Positions 19,714 to 45,527 of a DNA stretch of 45,527 nt are shown here, in pieces; position 1 is the first letter of the stretch; every line of letters starts with the position of its first letter. This stretch comes from Synechococcales cyanobacterium bin31.maxbin.ball.101 (GTDB taxonomy: Bacteria; Cyanobacteriota; Cyanobacteriia; Leptolyngbyales; Leptolyngbyaceae). The translations under genes and the position numbers were made by a program. Where the stretch lies: positions 1 through 45,527 of the forward strand of contig JAAFJU010000024.1 of the NCBI GenBank assembly GCA_013298165.1. Reading direction: 5' to 3'. Below the pieces are notes generated by a model, which was not told the origin of the DNA, did not search any database, and saw only the letters and a program-made list of their open reading frames with translations.

Positions 19714-19876
19714 ACAGGTCTCTCTAGAAAGGGGTTTGAATCTTGATTTTAACTTAGGTCAATGCGAATTCACAGCAACCGATCGGGAATCCTAGTGATA
19801 TTGCAAAATTTGCGAAATTTCCCCAATTCTGTACCACTCCGAATAGATCAAATTACAACATCAATTTACAACGTCA

Positions 19877-22795
19877 ATGTGCATGTCCAATCCGATCGGC
19901 CTTCTTAAACTAATCAATGGATTCTGGGTCGGAGTGATCTTAATGAATTCAGGTCAGGCCGTGGCGCAGGCAATTAAGGCAGATAATACCCTGGGAACCA
20001 ATGTTCAATCCCTGAATCCCCTAGACTTTAGCATCACAGGCGGCAAAACTTCGGGGGCGAATCTCTTTCATAGCTTCCAACAATTTTCTATCCCCAGCAC
20101 GGGCCGTGCAACGTTTGATTTGTCAGGAACGACAGGGATCACCTCCGTCTTTAGCCGCGTCACTGGAAATACCAGTTCTAATCTCGATGGCATCCTGGCT
20201 GCGACTAATCATAGTGGTCGGATTAGTCTATTCCTGATGAATCCAAACGGCATTGTTTTTGGTCCCAATGCACGATTGAATATTAATGGGTCATTCCTTG
20301 CAACTACGGCGTCTAGTATTCAGTTTAGAGATGGTCTGCAATTTGAAGCCAGTGCTAGTCCCACCGTGCCTTTGTTGAGCGTCAATGTGCCGATCGGTCT
20401 ACAGTTTGGCGCGACGCCAGGGCCGATCGTCAACCAAGCTCAATTGGAGGTTGCACCGGGATTGGGCACCTCCATTGGATTGATTGGGAGTGGAGTGACG
20501 GTGGACGGTGGACAATTGATTTCCTATGAAGGTCATGTCGAAGTGGGCAGCGTTGGAGCGGGAAGTTTTATCGGGTTGAGTCAAGGTAACGGGAACTATG
20601 ACCCAATGACGGGAAGTTTTGTCAATTTAAATCGACTTAAAGCAAACTACGATCGCGTGACAGACTTTCAAGATATCAAACTCACCAATGCCGCTCTCCT
20701 CGATACCAGCGGCACAGGTCCCGGGTCCATGCAACTGCAGGGCCGCCAAATCACCATTGACGGCTATTCCCGCGTCCTATCCCAAACCTGGGGGGCAGGA
20801 GTGCGCGATGCAGCCATGATTTTGCGAGCCTCAGACCGCATTCTCATCAAAGATGCCGACGGCGATCGATCGCTCCAAACCATCGTAGGAACTCAAATTG
20901 CCCCAGAGTCAAAGGGCAATGCACCCACTATCATTGTCGAAACCCCTATTTTAGACATTCAAGGCGGCGCACAGATTCAGGCCAAGAACTTTGGTGCCGG
21001 ACAGGGGAGTAATATCAATCTGCGGGTGGGGCAACTGCGGGCGATCGGAGAATCCGCCGATACCAGCTACATCAGCGGTATTGCCAACCGATCGGAACGG
21101 GGGGCAACGGGTCCTGCGGGAACGACGACGATCGAGGCACAGACCGTAACGCTGCAAGATGGCGCGCAAATTCGCACCTCAACCTTTGGCGGAGGACGAG
21201 GCGGAGACTTGTTTTTGACGGCGCAGACTCTCACTTTGTCAGGCCGATCGCAGGATCTCAGCGTCATCACAGGCATCACCGCGAGTTCTAAATCCAATTC
21301 CACGGCGAGAGGTGGAGATATTTATGTCGTGGTAGATCAACTCAAAATTTTAGATAGTTCTGGAATTCGGACCACCAGTGAAGGCAAAGGCGACTCTGGA
21401 GATATCTACATCACTGCCAACGATATTCTCATGGCCAGTCCACCCACCGCGCCCTATCGGGGCTGGAATGATATTAGTTACATTGGAGCCTCGACACGAG
21501 GAAATAAGCCCGGTGCGGGTAAAGGCGGAAATATTACGATCGTCACCCAAAACTTCAACCTGGAAGATGGCGCAAGTGTCCTGTCAGAAAGCTATGGGCC
21601 AGGGATTGGGGGCCACATTAACGTCACTGCCGATCGCATCACGGCCTCCGGATCATATGTGGACGGGGACCCCACCAGTCAAGATTTTTCTGGGTTTAAT
21701 CCAGCGGGCTTTTCGACGGCAACCTATCGTTCTGGACAGGGGGGTGATATCCGTCTCAATGCTAAGCAGATTCAATTTTCTAAAGGAGCGGAAGCCCTTT
21801 CTGCGACCTTTGGATCGGGAAATGCAGGGAATATCTTTGTCTCATCAGAGATGATTGATCTCACAGGTCAATGGACAGATCCCAGAATCACAGAACCCTA
21901 TCTTAATCTTAAATCTGGCTTCATTGCAGGATCGGGAGCTTCTGGAAATGCAGGCAATATTGAAATTTTAACCCAGACGCTTAATCTTTCAGATACCGCG
22001 ATCATTTCGATCGGGAGCGATAAAACCGGAGATTCCGGAAATTTAACAATTAAGGCCGATCGGATCAATCTGAATACAGGCTCAATGATTGACTCAGACC
22101 TATTGTTTGGAAATCAGGGCAACATTAACCTCAGCGCTAAGGTCATTGAATTGAGACAGGGTAGCTCCATCACGACGAATTCTGGTTCTAATGCAACTGG
22201 TGGCAATATTAAGTTGAATTCAGATCTTTTGATTGGGTTGGAGAACAGTGATATTTCAGCCAATGCTTTTCAGGGACGTGGCGGGACGATCGATATTACG
22301 GCCTCCACGGTGTTGGGATTACGATATCGCGATCGACTCACCCCCGACAATGACATTACCGCTAGCTCTCAAATTGGACTCAATGGTACCGTTAGTCTCA
22401 ATTCGCTGAACCTCGATCCAACCCGTGGCATCAATAGCTTACCGACCAATCTAGTGGATTCCTCCCTACAAATTAGCAACAGTTGTAACCCTCAAGCTCA
22501 ATCCAGTCGATTTATTATTACTGGACAGGGGGGCGTTGCTGAAAATCCGATCGACCATATCGTTCGAATGAATCCCTGGGGCGATATTCGTCCCCCAAAG
22601 ACCACTACAAGTTTGATCACTGAAAACAATCCCGTCAATCCAGGGGTTAAGACGCCATTGGTTGAAGCGACTGCGCTAAGAATGACTCAAAATACCAATG
22701 GTTTGCCCGAACTCGAACTCACGGGTCCTCAACCGAAAGCCTTATCGGGAGCCGTTGCCACCTGCGGCAGCGAAACCCGATCGCCCAAAATATAA
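19877..22795 (+). CDS. Filamentous-haemagglutinin-type exoprotein (TpsA-like)
   Basis: A 972-aa secreted protein. A signal peptide (ending near VAQA, residue 32) is followed by the haemagglutination-activity/TPS domain: SITGGKTSGANLFHSFQQFSI and the NPNGI motif (residues 122-126) in LMNPNGIVFGPNARLN. The rest is repetitive parallel-beta sequence rich in GGDI / GNAGNI turns (for example GGDIYVVVDQL, GNAGNIFVSSE). The C-terminal block (SCNPQAQSSRFIITGQGGV, then MNPWGDIRPP) is the usual end of this cyanobacterial family. In two-partner secretion such proteins cross the outer membrane through a TpsB pore; no TpsB gene is in the window. The final 67 bases overlap guanine deaminase on the opposite strand. 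Confidence 0.92.
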   Translation: MCMSNPIGLLKLINGFWVGVILMNSGQAVAQAIKADNTLGTNVQSLNPLDFSITGGKTSGANLFHSFQQFSIPSTGRATFDLSGTTGITSVFSRVTGNTSSNLDGILAATNHSGRISLFLMNPNGIVFGPNARLNINGSFLATTASSIQFRDGLQFEASASPTVPLLSVNVPIGLQFGATPGPIVNQAQLEVAPGLGTSIGLIGSGVTVDGGQLISYEGHVEVGSVGAGSFIGLSQGNGNYDPMTGSFVNLNRLKANYDRVTDFQDIKLTNAALLDTSGTGPGSMQLQGRQITIDGYSRVLSQTWGAGVRDAAMILRASDRILIKDADGDRSLQTIVGTQIAPESKGNAPTIIVETPILDIQGGAQIQAKNFGAGQGSNINLRVGQLRAIGESADTSYISGIANRSERGATGPAGTTTIEAQTVTLQDGAQIRTSTFGGGRGGDLFLTAQTLTLSGRSQDLSVITGITASSKSNSTARGGDIYVVVDQLKILDSSGIRTTSEGKGDSGDIYITANDILMASPPTAPYRGWNDISYIGASTRGNKPGAGKGGNITIVTQNFNLEDGASVLSESYGPGIGGHINVTADRITASGSYVDGDPTSQDFSGFNPAGFSTATYRSGQGGDIRLNAKQIQFSKGAEALSATFGSGNAGNIFVSSEMIDLTGQWTDPRITEPYLNLKSGFIAGSGASGNAGNIEILTQTLNLSDTAIISIGSDKTGDSGNLTIKADRINLNTGSMIDSDLLFGNQGNINLSAKVIELRQGSSITTNSGSNATGGNIKLNSDLLIGLENSDISANAFQGRGGTIDITASTVLGLRYRDRLTPDNDITASSQIGLNGTVSLNSLNLDPTRGINSLPTNLVDSSLQISNSCNPQAQSSRFIITGQGGVAENPIDHIVRMNPWGDIRPPKTTTSLITENNPVNPGVKTPLVEATALRMTQNTNGLPELELTGPQPKALSGAVATCGSETRSPKI

Positions 22796-40058: not shown

Positions 40059-41270
40059 CTAGCGACCTCGAAAAATCCAAAATGTCGTTTCCCAACAAAA
40101 GAACGAAGTTCCCGCATAACCTGCCGATCGTACAGCTTCTATTTCCTGTTTAATTTGTTTTTTCGCCTTTGCACCTTTGAACGGTCCAGTATATAAACCA
40201 ATACTGAGTGGAACAGTCTTAGCCACATTTTTCAAACTAGGATCGGCTAATTCAGTTTGCAAGGAGGTTAGATTAGGGCGATAAAGCTGCACAATAACTT
40301 CATCTAATAATCCCATTTTGACCCACCGGGGCCAGTCCTGGAGGGACTTACGATAGGCATAGTCGGCGGCATTAGGGGAGAGGGAAACGATCGCGTCGGA
40401 ACGAACCGATTTAACCGCTTTGTGAATCTGAACCATCAATTCCGTGAACCGATCGGCCCGCCATCGCATCCATTCGGGATCATTAATCTTTTTGGGTAAT
40501 TGTCCTGAATGTTCGGCTCGATAAAGATTGAGTGTATAGGGATCATAGCCATATTCGATCGGCAGTGCAAAGTGATCATCAAGCTGAATTCCTGCAACCG
40601 GATAGTCTTTTACCACTTCGGCAATCATCTCTGTGAGAAATGCTTGAACCTCTGGATGGAAGGGATTGAGCCATCCCTGTTCCTGACCAATGATGGATTG
40701 ACGGAGTGATGCGATCGGGTGGGGAAAGGGATTTTTAACCGTGGGCCGATCGGTTTTTTGGCCGTTTTGCTGTTGCGTTAACCAATTGGGATGGCGCTTT
40801 GCAATTTCCGAATCCAACGGAATCATCAATCCATATTCAAACCAAGGAATCAATCGAATAGTTTGCCGATCGGCCTGCGTCACTAATCCCCCAAAGGCAT
40901 CACTGAATGGAATGGCTAAATTCACCCATGGGTTCCGATCGCTCCCCCCAGCACGCTTCACCACGTCACTGCGAAACAGCGTATGCCCATGGTTCCAGAC
41001 AGCGGGGTATAGGGTATTGATTTTGTGCTTGGCGAGGTCGGCGATCGTGTCATCCAGTCTGCTGCTGTGATACATCAAGGACACCCCCAAATGAGTCATC
41101 CAAGTGCCTCGCAAGCCTTGACTATTGGATGACTTGACCACCGGAGCTTGCCACAAAATGACGACTAGCACAAAGGTCACGATCGACAAAATCCAAGGCT
41201 TTTTTCGGATCTTCTGCCAAACGATTTGCCAATATTTTTGCCATTGCTGCTGCGATCGTAACGCCTTCAT
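40059..41270 (-). CDS. Family 10-like glycosyl hydrolase (GHL10), membrane-anchored
   Basis: A 403-aa protein with an N-terminal membrane anchor (WILSIVTFVLVVILW, about 26-40). The domain begins at RGTWMTHLGVSLMYHS and includes INTLYPAVWNHGHTLF, then IRLIPWFEYGLMIP, WLNPFHPEVQAFLTEMI and GIQLDDHFALP. These are the TIM-barrel strands of the glycosyl-hydrolase-like 10 family (DUF187), which act on envelope or capsule polysaccharides. The anchor points to the periplasmic face. The gene converges with the histidine kinase with a gap of 21 bases. Confidence 0.88.
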   Translation of the reverse strand: MKALRSQQQWQKYWQIVWQKIRKKPWILSIVTFVLVVILWQAPVVKSSNSQGLRGTWMTHLGVSLMYHSSRLDDTIADLAKHKINTLYPAVWNHGHTLFRSDVVKRAGGSDRNPWVNLAIPFSDAFGGLVTQADRQTIRLIPWFEYGLMIPLDSEIAKRHPNWLTQQQNGQKTDRPTVKNPFPHPIASLRQSIIGQEQGWLNPFHPEVQAFLTEMIAEVVKDYPVAGIQLDDHFALPIEYGYDPYTLNLYRAEHSGQLPKKINDPEWMRWRADRFTELMVQIHKAVKSVRSDAIVSLSPNAADYAYRKSLQDWPRWVKMGLLDEVIVQLYRPNLTSLQTELADPSLKNVAKTVPLSIGLYTGPFKGAKAKKQIKQEIEAVRSAGYAGTSFFCWETTFWIFRGR

Positions 41271-41506
41271 ATCCGTTTGCTCATCAGGGTCTTGTTAGCT
41301 ATTTCTGGGTGACGCTCAAGTTATGCGATCGGTCATCAAAAACCATGGCTTTTGTCACCTATTCAGTGCATAAGTTCAGCTATGGTGGGTATACTCGATT
41401 TTAATTCCTAGATAGTAACGGTTCAAAACCGATCGATCGTGATTCAGTGATTTGAATCGAGACTCTACTTCCACTCCGCTATCCCCAAGCCGCCAGAGAG
41501 TTTGCC
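41271..41506. promoter_or_regulatory. Divergent promoter region
   Basis: The 236-base gap between the GHL10 gene and the POTRA-TPR-CHAT gene holds no ORF. A TATACT box at 41390-41395 is a possible -10 for the plus-strand gene, but a matching -35 is weak. No further features are apparent. Confidence 0.3.
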
Positions 41507-44500
41507 ATGTCAGCCAATCATTATACCAAACAATTTCAACGCTATCGCCGTGCTATGAAGCGATTTCTTTGGTTTGTGATGTCCTGCTGTCTGTCATTGC
41601 TCTTGTCACAGCCTTGGTTCCCGCTGTTAAAGCTGTCAATTCATGAGATCGACCAATTGATCGTACTGGGCGAATCCAAGGCGATCGCCGCTACACCGAT
41701 CGCCCAAGCCCCACCAACCAAACCTGAACCCAAGGTAAAAGTCGAAGAAGTTGTCGTCGAGGGCGTTACGGGTGAATTACAAGACATTGCCTACAAAACA
41801 TTGACACTAAAACCGGGAGGCATTACCACAAAATCAGAACTTCAAACTGAAATCAATACTCTTTTTGCGACGGGCTGGTTTAGCAATGTGCAAGCCGAAC
41901 CCAAAGATACCCCCAAAGGTGTGCGTGTCACCTTCATCGTCAAGCCGAATCCTGTGCTGAAACAGGTGAGTGTCATCGCGGACGATCGTAAAGCCATTAT
42001 TCCTGAGACAATTGTAAATGATATTTTCCGATCGCAATACGGTAAAGTCCTGAATTATAAAACCCTTCAATCCGGTGTTGTAAAAATCAATGAATGGTAT
42101 CGATCGAAAGATTATACCCTGGCCAATATCTCAGATCTTCCTAAAGTTAGTGAAGATGGAACGGTTACTTTAAAAATCAATGAAGGGGTCATTGAATCAA
42201 TTCGAGTGCGCTTTAAAGATTCGGAAGGGAAGATTCTTAAAGAAGGTAAGACACCCACTTCACTTATTTTAAAAGCTATTAAGATAAAGCCTGGAATGGT
42301 CGTTCAAAGTAGTCAGCTTCTTGCTGATGTCCAGCAAGTTTTTGCCTTAGGAATATTTCAAGACACCAAAATTAGTTTAGACCCCGGTAACGATCCTGCA
42401 AAGGCGATCGTTTACTTTGATGTTATTGAGAACAATAGTAAGAAAGAGAAGTTAATCCGTACCGCAGAGGCAGTGAATCAGGCAGAAGTTGAATTACAAC
42501 AAGCTCGTCAGAAAAAAGATCCAATCTCAGAAGCAAGAGCTTTACGGACTCTAGGTGGCATTCAATATGATGCAGACAAGTACAAAATGGCGCTAAAACT
42601 TTCTCAAGGCGCAAGCGATCGCTTCGGAGAAGCAGAAGCTCATCGAGGTATAGCCATCGTCCATTACTCAACTATAAAATCGGATGAAAAAGACGAGATT
42701 AAAAAAGAGAAGCGCAAGAAGGCGATCGCTAGTTATCAGACTGCGCTCAAAATCTATGAAGAACTCAAAAATGACCAACTAATGGCCATCGTCTTACGGA
42801 ATATAGGCTTTCTACATCAAGAATCAGAAGATTATTCAGAATCGATCGAGGTTTATAAACAAGCATTACCTATACTCGAAAAACTCAATCGACCTTTCTG
42901 GCAAGCACTAACATTAAGTAATTTAGGAGCTAGCTATCGAGAAGTCGAGGAGATGGATCAGTCTTTGATCGCACATCAACGAGCATTGAGACTGCTTCAA
43001 ACGATCAATAAAACGCCCAGACAATTGGAAAATATTTCATTAATCAGTACAGCAGATGAAATAACTTACTCACCTTTCAGCAGTTTTGTGGCGGGGTTAA
43101 AATATTCTAGTAGATCAGGAACTCAAGGGGTTATTAATTTTTATACGGAAGCAGATGATTTTAAGAAGGAAGGTTTGTTTGATGCACAAAAACTACAGGC
43201 CATCACTTTAATTAATATTGCGGGAATCTATCAGGGTGTTGGAGATTATCAACAAGCCTTATACACCTTTAAAGATGCTTTTCCACTACTAAATATCTCT
43301 CCTGATAATATTAAAATACTTAAAAAGATGGGTTTGACGGCATCCCAGAGAGATATAGGGATAATCAACGAAGGATTAGACCTATGTGAATCATTTATAA
43401 TGAGTAGAATTTATTCAGATATTGGCAACAGCAAGCTTTCAAACGCATACTTAGAGAAGACCGTTGCGCAGGGAAATCGTTTGGTTGATAGTTATGCAAG
43501 TTACGTGAGTTCCGACAATCCTGGAGACAATATTTCATTTTCAAATTTCCTACCTGTTTTAAGCTCGTTCTTTTCAATGCTAGGGATCGATTTTGACAAT
43601 AGCTTCAATGATAATTCTGAGAACAGAAATAACGAGCTGATTTATAATTGGCTTAAAAGTAGTCTTCCTACACTTCGAAAATTTATCGATCGGAATCCAC
43701 AGTGGAAATCTCAAGTTCAGGCTTATATTCCATTAATTGATATAGTAGATAATTACTTCGCTGGAGAAGTTCTATCTAAAAACAACAAATATCCACAGGC
43801 GATCGAGGCTTATCAAAAAGCTTTAGCACAATGGAAAAGTATTCCTTGGGAAACACTCCTCTCAATCCCACGTCAAGGCAGCGGAAATAATTCTTCCGTT
43901 CAAGCCTCTGATAAAGCCTCTGATACAACTGCAAGTGTGGGCCTCAAGGTCAGCGGGAACAGTTCCTCTCTTCAAGTCTCCGATACGATCGCAACCATAC
44001 TCGACCTCATTGATCAACTTCAAGAAGTCTATTACGCTAAAACCCATACAGGTCTGAGTACATCACTTCTAGCGATAGGAAAAGTTCAAGAAGCGCTTTC
44101 AGTCCAGCAGCAAGCGCTACAAATCTTGGAAACTCACCAATCAAAGCCGCGTTCTAAACGTCCCAAGTCAACATCGGTATGGTCAGAGTTCGCAGACAAA
44201 ATACCAGATACAGCGATGGCTGAAGCCCTACATCAGCTTGGAAAATCCTATGTCGCTAATCAACAGTATGACCTTGCGCTAAAAAGCTTAGGCAGAGCCT
44301 TGCCTGTCTGGGAAAAAGTAAAAGAAATTATCAAACAAGCGGATACGGAATGGGAAATGGCGATCGTCCAACGCAAACAAGGAAACCTGATTCAATCTAA
44401 AGCTCAAATTGAAACGGCGATCGATCGGATTGAATCTAAAGAAGCACAACTCGAACAGCAGCAGAAAAAAGAAGGAGATGAGAAGAAAAAGAATATCAAA

Positions 44501-45527
44501 TCTACCGCCTACAAATCCTACTTAAAGCTAGCGGACTACCTCGCATCCAAGCATGACTACTATGCGTTTTATATTGATCTATTAATGGCACTGCATCAAC
44601 AATCTCCTGGTAGTGGCTATGAAGAACTCGCATTCCAGGCCAGCGAACGCTCCCACGCCCGCAGCCTCCGCGCCATGCTCAACCGTTCCAATCAAAAGGC
44701 AACTACCACCGCATCAGACAAGCCTCAAGGGATTCAACTCGCCCAACCCTTATCCTTAAAAGACATTCAACAGCAACTTCTAGATGACAAAACCCTCCTC
44801 TTAGAATATTCACTAGGCCAAGACAAGAGTTACCTCTGGGCCGTCACTAAAACCGGACTCAAGACGTATATTTTACCAAAACAAGCGGATATCGAAATTG
44901 CAGCTCGTCAAATGATTGGCTTATTGAAATCGCGAGACTATCAATTTGGCGATCGCGAACCCCTTCAAGAGGTGGCGAATTCTGGCAACACCGATGTTGC
45001 AACCTACCTGAGTAAAATGCTCCTGGGACAAGTCGCAGACCAATTAGAAAACAAGCGACTCCTAATTGTTTCCGATGGGATTTTACATTATTTACCCTTC
45101 GCCGCCTTGCCGAAACCGGGGAAAGAAACCGCTCCTCTATTAATGGATCATGAAATCATCGGATTGCCATCTGCTTCGATCGGAGCCGGGTTTCAAAAGC
45201 GCAGAACGAGTCCCAAGTCCTTCTCGCAAGAGGTGATCATCCTCGCTGATCCCATTTTCACCTGGGATGACGATCGGCTCCCCAATCGAAATACCACCGA
45301 CATTGAAAAACTCTACAAACGCCTAGAAGGAACCCGCGTAGAAGCGACTAAAATCGCCACCCTCAGCCCCGGAAAAAACCTAATCAAACTCGATGGGGAA
45401 GCCAGTCGCCAACTCATCATGACCACCGATTTAAATCCCTATCGCATTGTTCATCTGGCCACCCACGGCATTCTCAATAGCCAAAACCCGGCGCGATCGG
45501 GCATGATTCTCTCCACCGTTGACACGC
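41507..45527 (+). CDS. POTRA-TPR-CHAT fusion protein (partial, 3' end outside window)
   Basis: The frame stays open from ATG 41507 to the last base, giving at least 1340 residues with no stop. Residues 18-41 are hydrophobic (RFLWFVMSCCLSLLLSQPW), with a possible cleavage site near AAT-PIAQA (about 62-70). Residues 77-150, 151-225 and 226-308 read as three POTRA domains of the cyanobacterial Omp85/Toc75 type: TTKSELQTEINTLFATGWF, SNVQAEPKDTPKGVRVTFIV, INEWYRSKDYTLANI, and later FALGIFQDTKISLDPG. From about 315 to 1050 the protein is TPR-rich (RTLGGIQYDADKY, LRNIGFLHQESEDYSESI, ALTLSNLGASYREVEEMDQS). From about 1095 a CHAT (caspase-like) domain starts (LLLEYSLGQDKSYLWAV, LLIVSDGILHYLPFAALP), with the catalytic His in HLATHGILNSQNPARSG (around residue 1318). 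The catalytic Cys should follow just beyond the window. No beta-barrel is seen so far. Confidence 0.9.
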   Translation, partial: MSANHYTKQFQRYRRAMKRFLWFVMSCCLSLLLSQPWFPLLKLSIHEIDQLIVLGESKAIAATPIAQAPPTKPEPKVKVEEVVVEGVTGELQDIAYKTLTLKPGGITTKSELQTEINTLFATGWFSNVQAEPKDTPKGVRVTFIVKPNPVLKQVSVIADDRKAIIPETIVNDIFRSQYGKVLNYKTLQSGVVKINEWYRSKDYTLANISDLPKVSEDGTVTLKINEGVIESIRVRFKDSEGKILKEGKTPTSLILKAIKIKPGMVVQSSQLLADVQQVFALGIFQDTKISLDPGNDPAKAIVYFDVIENNSKKEKLIRTAEAVNQAEVELQQARQKKDPISEARALRTLGGIQYDADKYKMALKLSQGASDRFGEAEAHRGIAIVHYSTIKSDEKDEIKKEKRKKAIASYQTALKIYEELKNDQLMAIVLRNIGFLHQESEDYSESIEVYKQALPILEKLNRPFWQALTLSNLGASYREVEEMDQSLIAHQRALRLLQTINKTPRQLENISLISTADEITYSPFSSFVAGLKYSSRSGTQGVINFYTEADDFKKEGLFDAQKLQAITLINIAGIYQGVGDYQQALYTFKDAFPLLNISPDNIKILKKMGLTASQRDIGIINEGLDLCESFIMSRIYSDIGNSKLSNAYLEKTVAQGNRLVDSYASYVSSDNPGDNISFSNFLPVLSSFFSMLGIDFDNSFNDNSENRNNELIYNWLKSSLPTLRKFIDRNPQWKSQVQAYIPLIDIVDNYFAGEVLSKNNKYPQAIEAYQKALAQWKSIPWETLLSIPRQGSGNNSSVQASDKASDTTASVGLKVSGNSSSLQVSDTIATILDLIDQLQEVYYAKTHTGLSTSLLAIGKVQEALSVQQQALQILETHQSKPRSKRPKSTSVWSEFADKIPDTAMAEALHQLGKSYVANQQYDLALKSLGRALPVWEKVKEIIKQADTEWEMAIVQRKQGNLIQSKAQIETAIDRIESKEAQLEQQQKKEGDEKKKNIKSTAYKSYLKLADYLASKHDYYAFYIDLLMALHQQSPGSGYEELAFQASERSHARSLRAMLNRSNQKATTTASDKPQGIQLAQPLSLKDIQQQLLDDKTLLLEYSLGQDKSYLWAVTKTGLKTYILPKQADIEIAARQMIGLLKSRDYQFGDREPLQEVANSGNTDVATYLSKMLLGQVADQLENKRLLIVSDGILHYLPFAALPKPGKETAPLLMDHEIIGLPSASIGAGFQKRRTSPKSFSQEVIILADPIFTWDDDRLPNRNTTDIEKLYKRLEGTRVEATKIATLSPGKNLIKLDGEASRQLIMTTDLNPYRIVHLATHGILNSQNPARSGMILSTVDT

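Follow-up and report, generated by a model that had tools for sequence, protein, structure and literature searches.

POTRA domains act as reading heads when the outer membrane is assembled; in Omp85 they are located in the periplasm, where they bind substrates. CHAT domains are relatives of separases and caspases, and are best known in cytosolic regulation and defence. Among the described CHAT proteins, HetF from Anabaena (CHAT-TM-TPR, TM being a transmembrane segment) is a membrane-linked cyanobacterial protein combining CHAT with TPR, the active site of which is required (PMC8406250), and Csx29, the TPR-CHAT protein of Craspase, cleaves the anti-sigma factor Csx30 and was compared by its authors to DegS/RseA (PMC10028731). 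A CHAT-like fold also forms part of DdvA (8rw5, 8rot), a transmembrane anti-sigma factor from Myxococcus. In this work, we analyze a gene located at the end of a 45,527-nucleotide stretch of DNA (hereafter the window: the entire contig JAAFJU010000024.1 of Synechococcales cyanobacterium bin31.maxbin.ball.101, assembly GCA_013298165.1), which joins three POTRA domains of the Omp85 type, a long TPR region and a CHAT domain in a single frame.

This layout differs from each of the known systems. When compared with the cyanobacterial Omp85/Toc75 proteins (Alr2269 and Alr4893; structures 3mc8 and 2x8x), the fusion has the same three POTRAs in the same order (40-49% identical), but carries TPR-CHAT in place of the beta-barrel, with the fusion point just after POTRA3 and remnants of barrel strands in Pseudanabaena frigida (L118) and genome G424 (L195); furthermore, the cell has its real Omp85 as well, the fusion being an extra gene. 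With Csx29 and the separases it shares the His/Cys dyad and a CHAT domain whose predicted structure superposes over about 370-400 residues (Z scores of 31 and 26), but the fusion protein is predicted to be exported, is POTRA-headed and has no CRISPR link. Residues 654-991 of DdvA also match the predicted CHAT domain (Z 21.6, 20% identity); whereas DdvA is one transmembrane chain, the fusion protein has no transmembrane helix after its N-terminus, and its putative receptor is a separate protein containing a CHASE2 domain. HetF has no POTRAs and differs in domain order and CHAT class; the CHAT-CHASE2 protein encoded beside the fusion gene of Nostocales HT-58-2 matches the HetF model weakly. Finally, exported TPR-CHAT genes lying beside DUF928 and CHASE2 genes in cyanobacteria (including the window genome) have the same core and partners, but no POTRA head. 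Given that the sequence and fold features of CHAT proteins and the POTRA part of Omp85 are present and the barrel is missing, we class the fusion as a variant exported TPR-CHAT protein, and not as an Omp85. An earlier note on this DNA, made from the sequence alone, knew of no system with this layout, and we likewise found no description of it in the open full-text literature (subscription papers being outside the search), where no paper combined the CHAT domain with POTRA and the single one mentioning POTRA, CHAT and cyanobacteria was unrelated.

The explanation that we favour, with a probability of about 0.4, is that the protein is a periplasmic TPR-CHAT sensor-protease of the caspase/separase kind, in which the Omp85 POTRA arm replaces the barrel as a sensor or docking head and the CHASE2 protein relays the output.

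Anatomy of the fusion protein

The open reading frame is stop-free for 1340 residues and runs off the contig end (codon 17 is an alternative ATG start). Its parts are as follows:

41507-45526, forward strand: 5' part of the POTRA-TPR-CHAT fusion gene (1340 codons), open at the 3' contig end
41507-41725, forward strand: N-terminal export-signal-like region with the core KRFLWFVMSCCLSLLL and an AxA-like site near residue 60, followed by a Pro/Lys linker (sequence and hydrophobicity scan)
41726-42439, forward strand: three POTRA domains of the cyanobacterial Omp85/Toc75 type, residues 74-311 (Pfam, sequence and structure matches)
42458-44656, forward strand: TPR/helical repeat region, about residues 318-1050 (Pfam and AlphaFold)
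44762-45526, forward strand: CHAT region, residues 1086-1340, truncated ahead of the Cys by the end of the contig (Pfam, relatives and structure match)
45464-45466, forward strand: invariant His H1320 in HLATHG, presumed catalytic (alignment of relatives)

The POTRA hallmark of the Omp85/TpsB superfamily is clearly present in the window protein, with the Pfam family PF07244 scoring 61.5 bits in three stretches (cut-off 21.3). Among solved structures, the best sequence matches are the POTRAs of Anabaena Alr2269 (3mc8, E-value 3.6e-63) and those of the Thermosynechococcus Omp85 (2x8x). The AlphaFold model of residues 68-480 (mean predicted local distance difference test, pLDDT, of 87) superposes on 3mc8 over 243 residues with a Z score of 22.9, confirming the Omp85 POTRA1-3 that the earlier note had read in this region, and its second half superposes on TPR proteins. 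The NCBIfam model of chloroplast Toc75 matches residues 67-313 (E-value 3e-43), a score which is under that model's full-length cut-off. Several Pfam TPR families match the window protein (TPR_12 at 111 bits), and in most complete relatives POTRA3 leads directly into the TPRs, at the position at which the barrel starts in Omp85. The other hallmark of the superfamily, a C-terminal 16-stranded beta-barrel, is absent, as judged on the complete relatives, which end right after CHAT: their frames stop within a few residues of this domain, with no transmembrane helix or barrel beyond it, and a barrel query matched Omp85 frames only and no fusion protein.

The truncated CHAT domain of the window scores 74.6 bits with PF12770 (residues 1163-1339, profile positions 2-170 of 289; cut-off 24), which places it in the CHAT family. 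The His is conserved in the window and in all aligned relatives (13 aligned members), where the motif reads HFATHG. The Cys (LSGC or SGC), whose position in the window lies beyond the contig end, is kept in 12 of the 12 aligned complete relatives, so that the dyad of CHAT proteases is complete when the Cys is judged on these. For the C. brevissima member, the predicted structure of the CHAT region (predicted template modelling score, pTM, of 0.80) has a caspase-like fold, matching Csx29/Craspase (Z 31.1), separase (Z 26.1), Myxococcus DdvA (Z 21.6) and the gingipains (Z 18). The domain may act as a protease. A distinctly improbable alternative is a non-catalytic scaffold, in which CHAT has no protease function and the protein bridges the outer-membrane machinery and the CHASE2 receptor; the CHAT-like fold inside DdvA, a non-protease regulator, fits this view, but the retention of the His/Cys pair in every complete member, despite an overall identity of about 30-45%, speaks against it.

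A signal-like hydrophobic N-terminus was found by the hydrophobicity scan in all 14 members scanned (nine with an AxA-like site). Based on these N-termini, and on the periplasmic location of the POTRAs in Omp85, the fusion protein is predicted from sequence to be exported to the periplasm. The combination of POTRAs, TPRs and CHAT in one exported-looking frame, as claimed by the earlier note, is borne out by Pfam, 3mc8 and the structure searches. The note had also regarded the envelope as an odd place for a CHAT domain: the exported look stands, but the oddity does not, since a signal-bearing TPR-CHAT gene adjoins the homologue in genome G004 and part of DdvA shares the fold.

The missing CHAT end of the window protein, with its Cys, was not located elsewhere in the same assembly, and both this end and the downstream neighbours are taken from the relatives. 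One contig of the same genome (C354), which starts with a CHAT C-terminus (CETALTG...), was considered as the missing end and rejected for being of another CHAT type: it is 30% identical to the end of the G004 homologue, against 54% to another CHAT of the window genome, and no overlap with the window contig was found.

Distribution among cyanobacteria

The same fusion occurs in 16 further cyanobacterial loci (17 with the window), 13 of them with complete open frames of 1300-1639 residues. An alignment-based scan of genome contigs recovered relatives; a scan of these contigs with a single-protein query gave none. The carriers are two Calothrix plasmids, a metagenome-assembled genome of Leptolyngbyaceae (HOT.MB2.61), Stenomitos rutilans, P. 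frigida, Nostocales HT-58-2 (a finished chromosome), Mastigocoleus testarum, three Nostoc strains and genomes G034, G442 and G424; in addition, the G004 copy is split over contigs and those of L199/L141 and L120 are broken. Within the window's family, six of 42 genomes have the fusion (one of them as a truncated copy), and a class-wide draw gave at least nine of 390 genomes, a lower bound as two candidates per genome were scored.

That a frame or assembly error had joined a TPR-CHAT gene to a piece of Omp85, which the earlier note named as fatal to its claim, might be suspected from a frame that runs off its contig. Nevertheless, 13 loci have the same fused frame in complete form, and plasmids and a finished chromosome are among them. 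The fusion is not a mis-assembly, and the chance of such an artefact is practically nil.

Several first impressions did not stand. Two members (L106 and L101) looked POTRA-less, but the ends of their contigs are near these frames, and a third (L107), initially classed as POTRA-less, has POTRAs once the frame is extended (L195, G424). Acidobacterial matches were rejected as relatives, given that they cover the TPR-CHAT part alone, without POTRA. A long POTRA frame of 1238 residues in genome G294 proved to be an ordinary Omp85 (L071, 6446-10159), whose long N-terminus consists of several near-identical repeats (EKIAQFPTPVPEKIAIAEINNFSNLGIILNKAE...). In M. testarum, the fusion gene is present on each of two near-identical contigs (L113 and L114), together with a second Omp85-like frame (652 residues) at a distance of about 14 kb.

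Repeated acquisition of the POTRA arm

With respect to their CHAT regions, the fused proteins fall into a single clade (support 100/99); two other members of this clade have frames that stop close to the end of a contig. For the fused POTRAs, a single clade is rejected in the tree that contains the hosts' own Omp85s (log-likelihood difference of 179; approximately unbiased, AU, test, p = 4e-40); before these were added, the AU test was weak (p 0.015 with L118 and 0.10 without it). In the clearest case, the fused POTRAs of P. frigida are sister to the Omp85 of the same genome (100/100, 76% identity), and their alignment to Omp85 runs past POTRA3 into what remains of the first barrel strand(s); in the G424 protein, the alignment continues about 55 residues into the barrel. 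In HT-58-2, the fused POTRAs are 73% identical to the resident Omp85 and cluster with Nostocales Omp85s, even though the CHAT domain is sister to that of Mastigocoleus. Both the P. frigida and the HT-58-2 genomes keep Omp85 homologues as separate genes. Since the L113 POTRAs shift position between trees, separate acquisition is claimed for P. frigida and HT-58-2 only. Omp85 POTRA arms came onto one CHAT lineage more than once, either by repeated fusion or by POTRA exchange through recombination with the resident Omp85. Neither this repeated acquisition nor the conserved set of partner genes described below was part of the earlier note.

The acquisitions are explained equally well by the sensor-protease that we prefer and by its main rival, an integrated-decoy immune sensor. 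According to the latter, the POTRAs would be a bait copied from the host Omp85, trapping phage proteins, bacteriocins or inhibitors that hit Omp85; binding to the bait would unleash CHAT, and CHASE2-CHAT or TIR-CHAT partners would execute a conflict response. The presence of two members on mobilizable plasmids also suits a decoy, although most fusion loci lie on ordinary contigs or chromosomes.

Gene neighbourhood

Both a DUF928 and a CHASE2 gene adjoin the fusion gene in 11 of the 17 loci, mostly converging on its 3' end. The downstream side of the window locus lies beyond the contig end, so this adjacency is read from the other loci; additionally, DUF928 is visible up to the contig end in G442, and broken CHASE2 pieces are present in L199. 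The same two genes adjoin POTRA-less TPR-CHAT genes, also in the window genome, and therefore the partners go with the TPR-CHAT core, the POTRA head being the new part. In the CHASE2 neighbour protein, hydrophobic segments flank CHASE2 on both sides. Four loci have an N-terminal CHAT on this protein (with recognisable His and Cys motifs in three), which is predicted to be cytosolic, with CHASE2 in the periplasm; one locus has CHASE2 joined to a histidine kinase-type ATPase. No paper treating CHAT together with CHASE2 was found in the open full-text literature. These receptors, and a small protein adjoining one of the CHASE2 genes, are:

L110, 12757-15477: CHAT-CHASE2 fusion receptor of HT-58-2
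L118, 12923-15514: CHAT-CHASE2 fusion receptor of P. frigida
L136, 4569-7187: CHAT-CHASE2 fusion receptor
L073, 14186-16285: CHAT-CHASE2 fusion receptor
L012, 16045-17181: small CHAT-TIR protein, the TIR of which matches the PADLOC model of Thoeris ThsB (211 bits)

Neighbours of the conflict type, which favour the decoy, are found in a minority of loci, namely Trypco2 genes in three and this ThsB-matching TIR-CHAT gene in one; a published interpretation sees a conflict system in a Trypco2 locus whose target is a CHAT-TIR protein (PMC10907252). On the other hand, no known anti-phage defence system is recognised by PADLOC in the fusion protein, which matches generic TPR models only, and CHASE2 and DUF928 match none of its models. 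Overall, we consider the decoy unlikely, albeit a serious contender. Rather unlikely, too, is an extended form of it, in which the POTRA copy would be renewed as the resident Omp85 evolves and the protein, be it for immunity or stress, would signal via the CHASE2 receptor to the second, cytosolic CHAT, as a caspase-to-caspase relay across the envelope.

The neighbourhood also bears on an idea from the earlier note, namely that the protein is a maturation factor, whose POTRAs would dock Omp85 or TpsB clients for CHAT to trim outer-membrane or secreted proteins. Omp85 POTRAs do bind substrates, and a gene for a secreted S8-type/Ca-binding protein adjoins the G004 homologue; however, no substrate gene recurs nearby, the neighbours are receptor-like and the patchy distribution described above speaks against a housekeeping role, so that we see this as quite unlikely. 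Both this reading and the non-catalytic scaffold are less favoured than the sensor-protease and the decoy.

A possible signalling chain

In the sensor-protease that we prefer, the POTRAs would compete with the real Omp85 or sit beside it, binding its clients or partners, and the TPR scaffold would transmit this binding to CHAT. Once active, CHAT would cleave an envelope partner, the likeliest candidates being the exported DUF928 protein and the CHASE2 domain on the periplasmic side of the receptor; the cytosolic part of this receptor (CHAT, histidine kinase or a neighbouring TIR-CHAT) would then yield the cell response. The overall action would be that of a DegS-type sensor of outer-membrane-assembly stress, for which DegS/RseA, Csx29-Csx30 and the DdvA anti-sigma factor seem the nearest working analogies. 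The POTRA ligand, the CHAT substrate and the direction of the signal are all inferred here.

Several observations weigh against this explanation. Anabaena Alr2269 has been reported as dispensable for barrel insertion and active in Ca2+ uptake (PMC12548389). CHAT could be a pseudo-protease scaffold, and the exchange of POTRAs could reflect passive gene conversion among similar sequences, rather than selection for a match to the host Omp85. The association of the partner genes with POTRA-less TPR-CHATs leaves the POTRAs unexplained, and three closely related Nostoc loci have neither DUF928 nor CHASE2, showing a purple-acid-phosphatase-like gene instead. The occurrence of both domains in one protein predicted to be exported, with POTRAs that differ in origin but sit on one CHAT lineage, points to an undescribed mechanism by which cyanobacteria could monitor the outer membrane, and the DUF928 and CHASE2-CHAT partners offer a testable signalling chain.

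Other features of the window and its genome

The earlier note's suggestion of a link to two-partner-secretion substrates found no support, given that the one gene of this type noticed in the window is 19 kb away and that the recurrent neighbours are DUF928 and CHASE2, and not TpsA or Omp85:

Window, 19847-22792: two-partner-secretion type exoprotein whose N-terminus holds a TPS secretion domain (PF05860, 155 bits), with no link to the fusion seen

The window genome has 34 CHAT, 14 CHASE2 and 9 DUF928 matches, and CHAT-CHASE2 and DUF928 lie side by side on its contigs C270, C125 and C105, forming a large paralogous signalling set. In the window itself, the divergent upstream neighbour of the fusion gene (40062-41294) encodes a protein of the GHL10 family (glycosyl hydrolase-like family 10); HT-58-2 also has a homologue upstream of its fusion gene (L110, 4328-5596), perhaps by chance.

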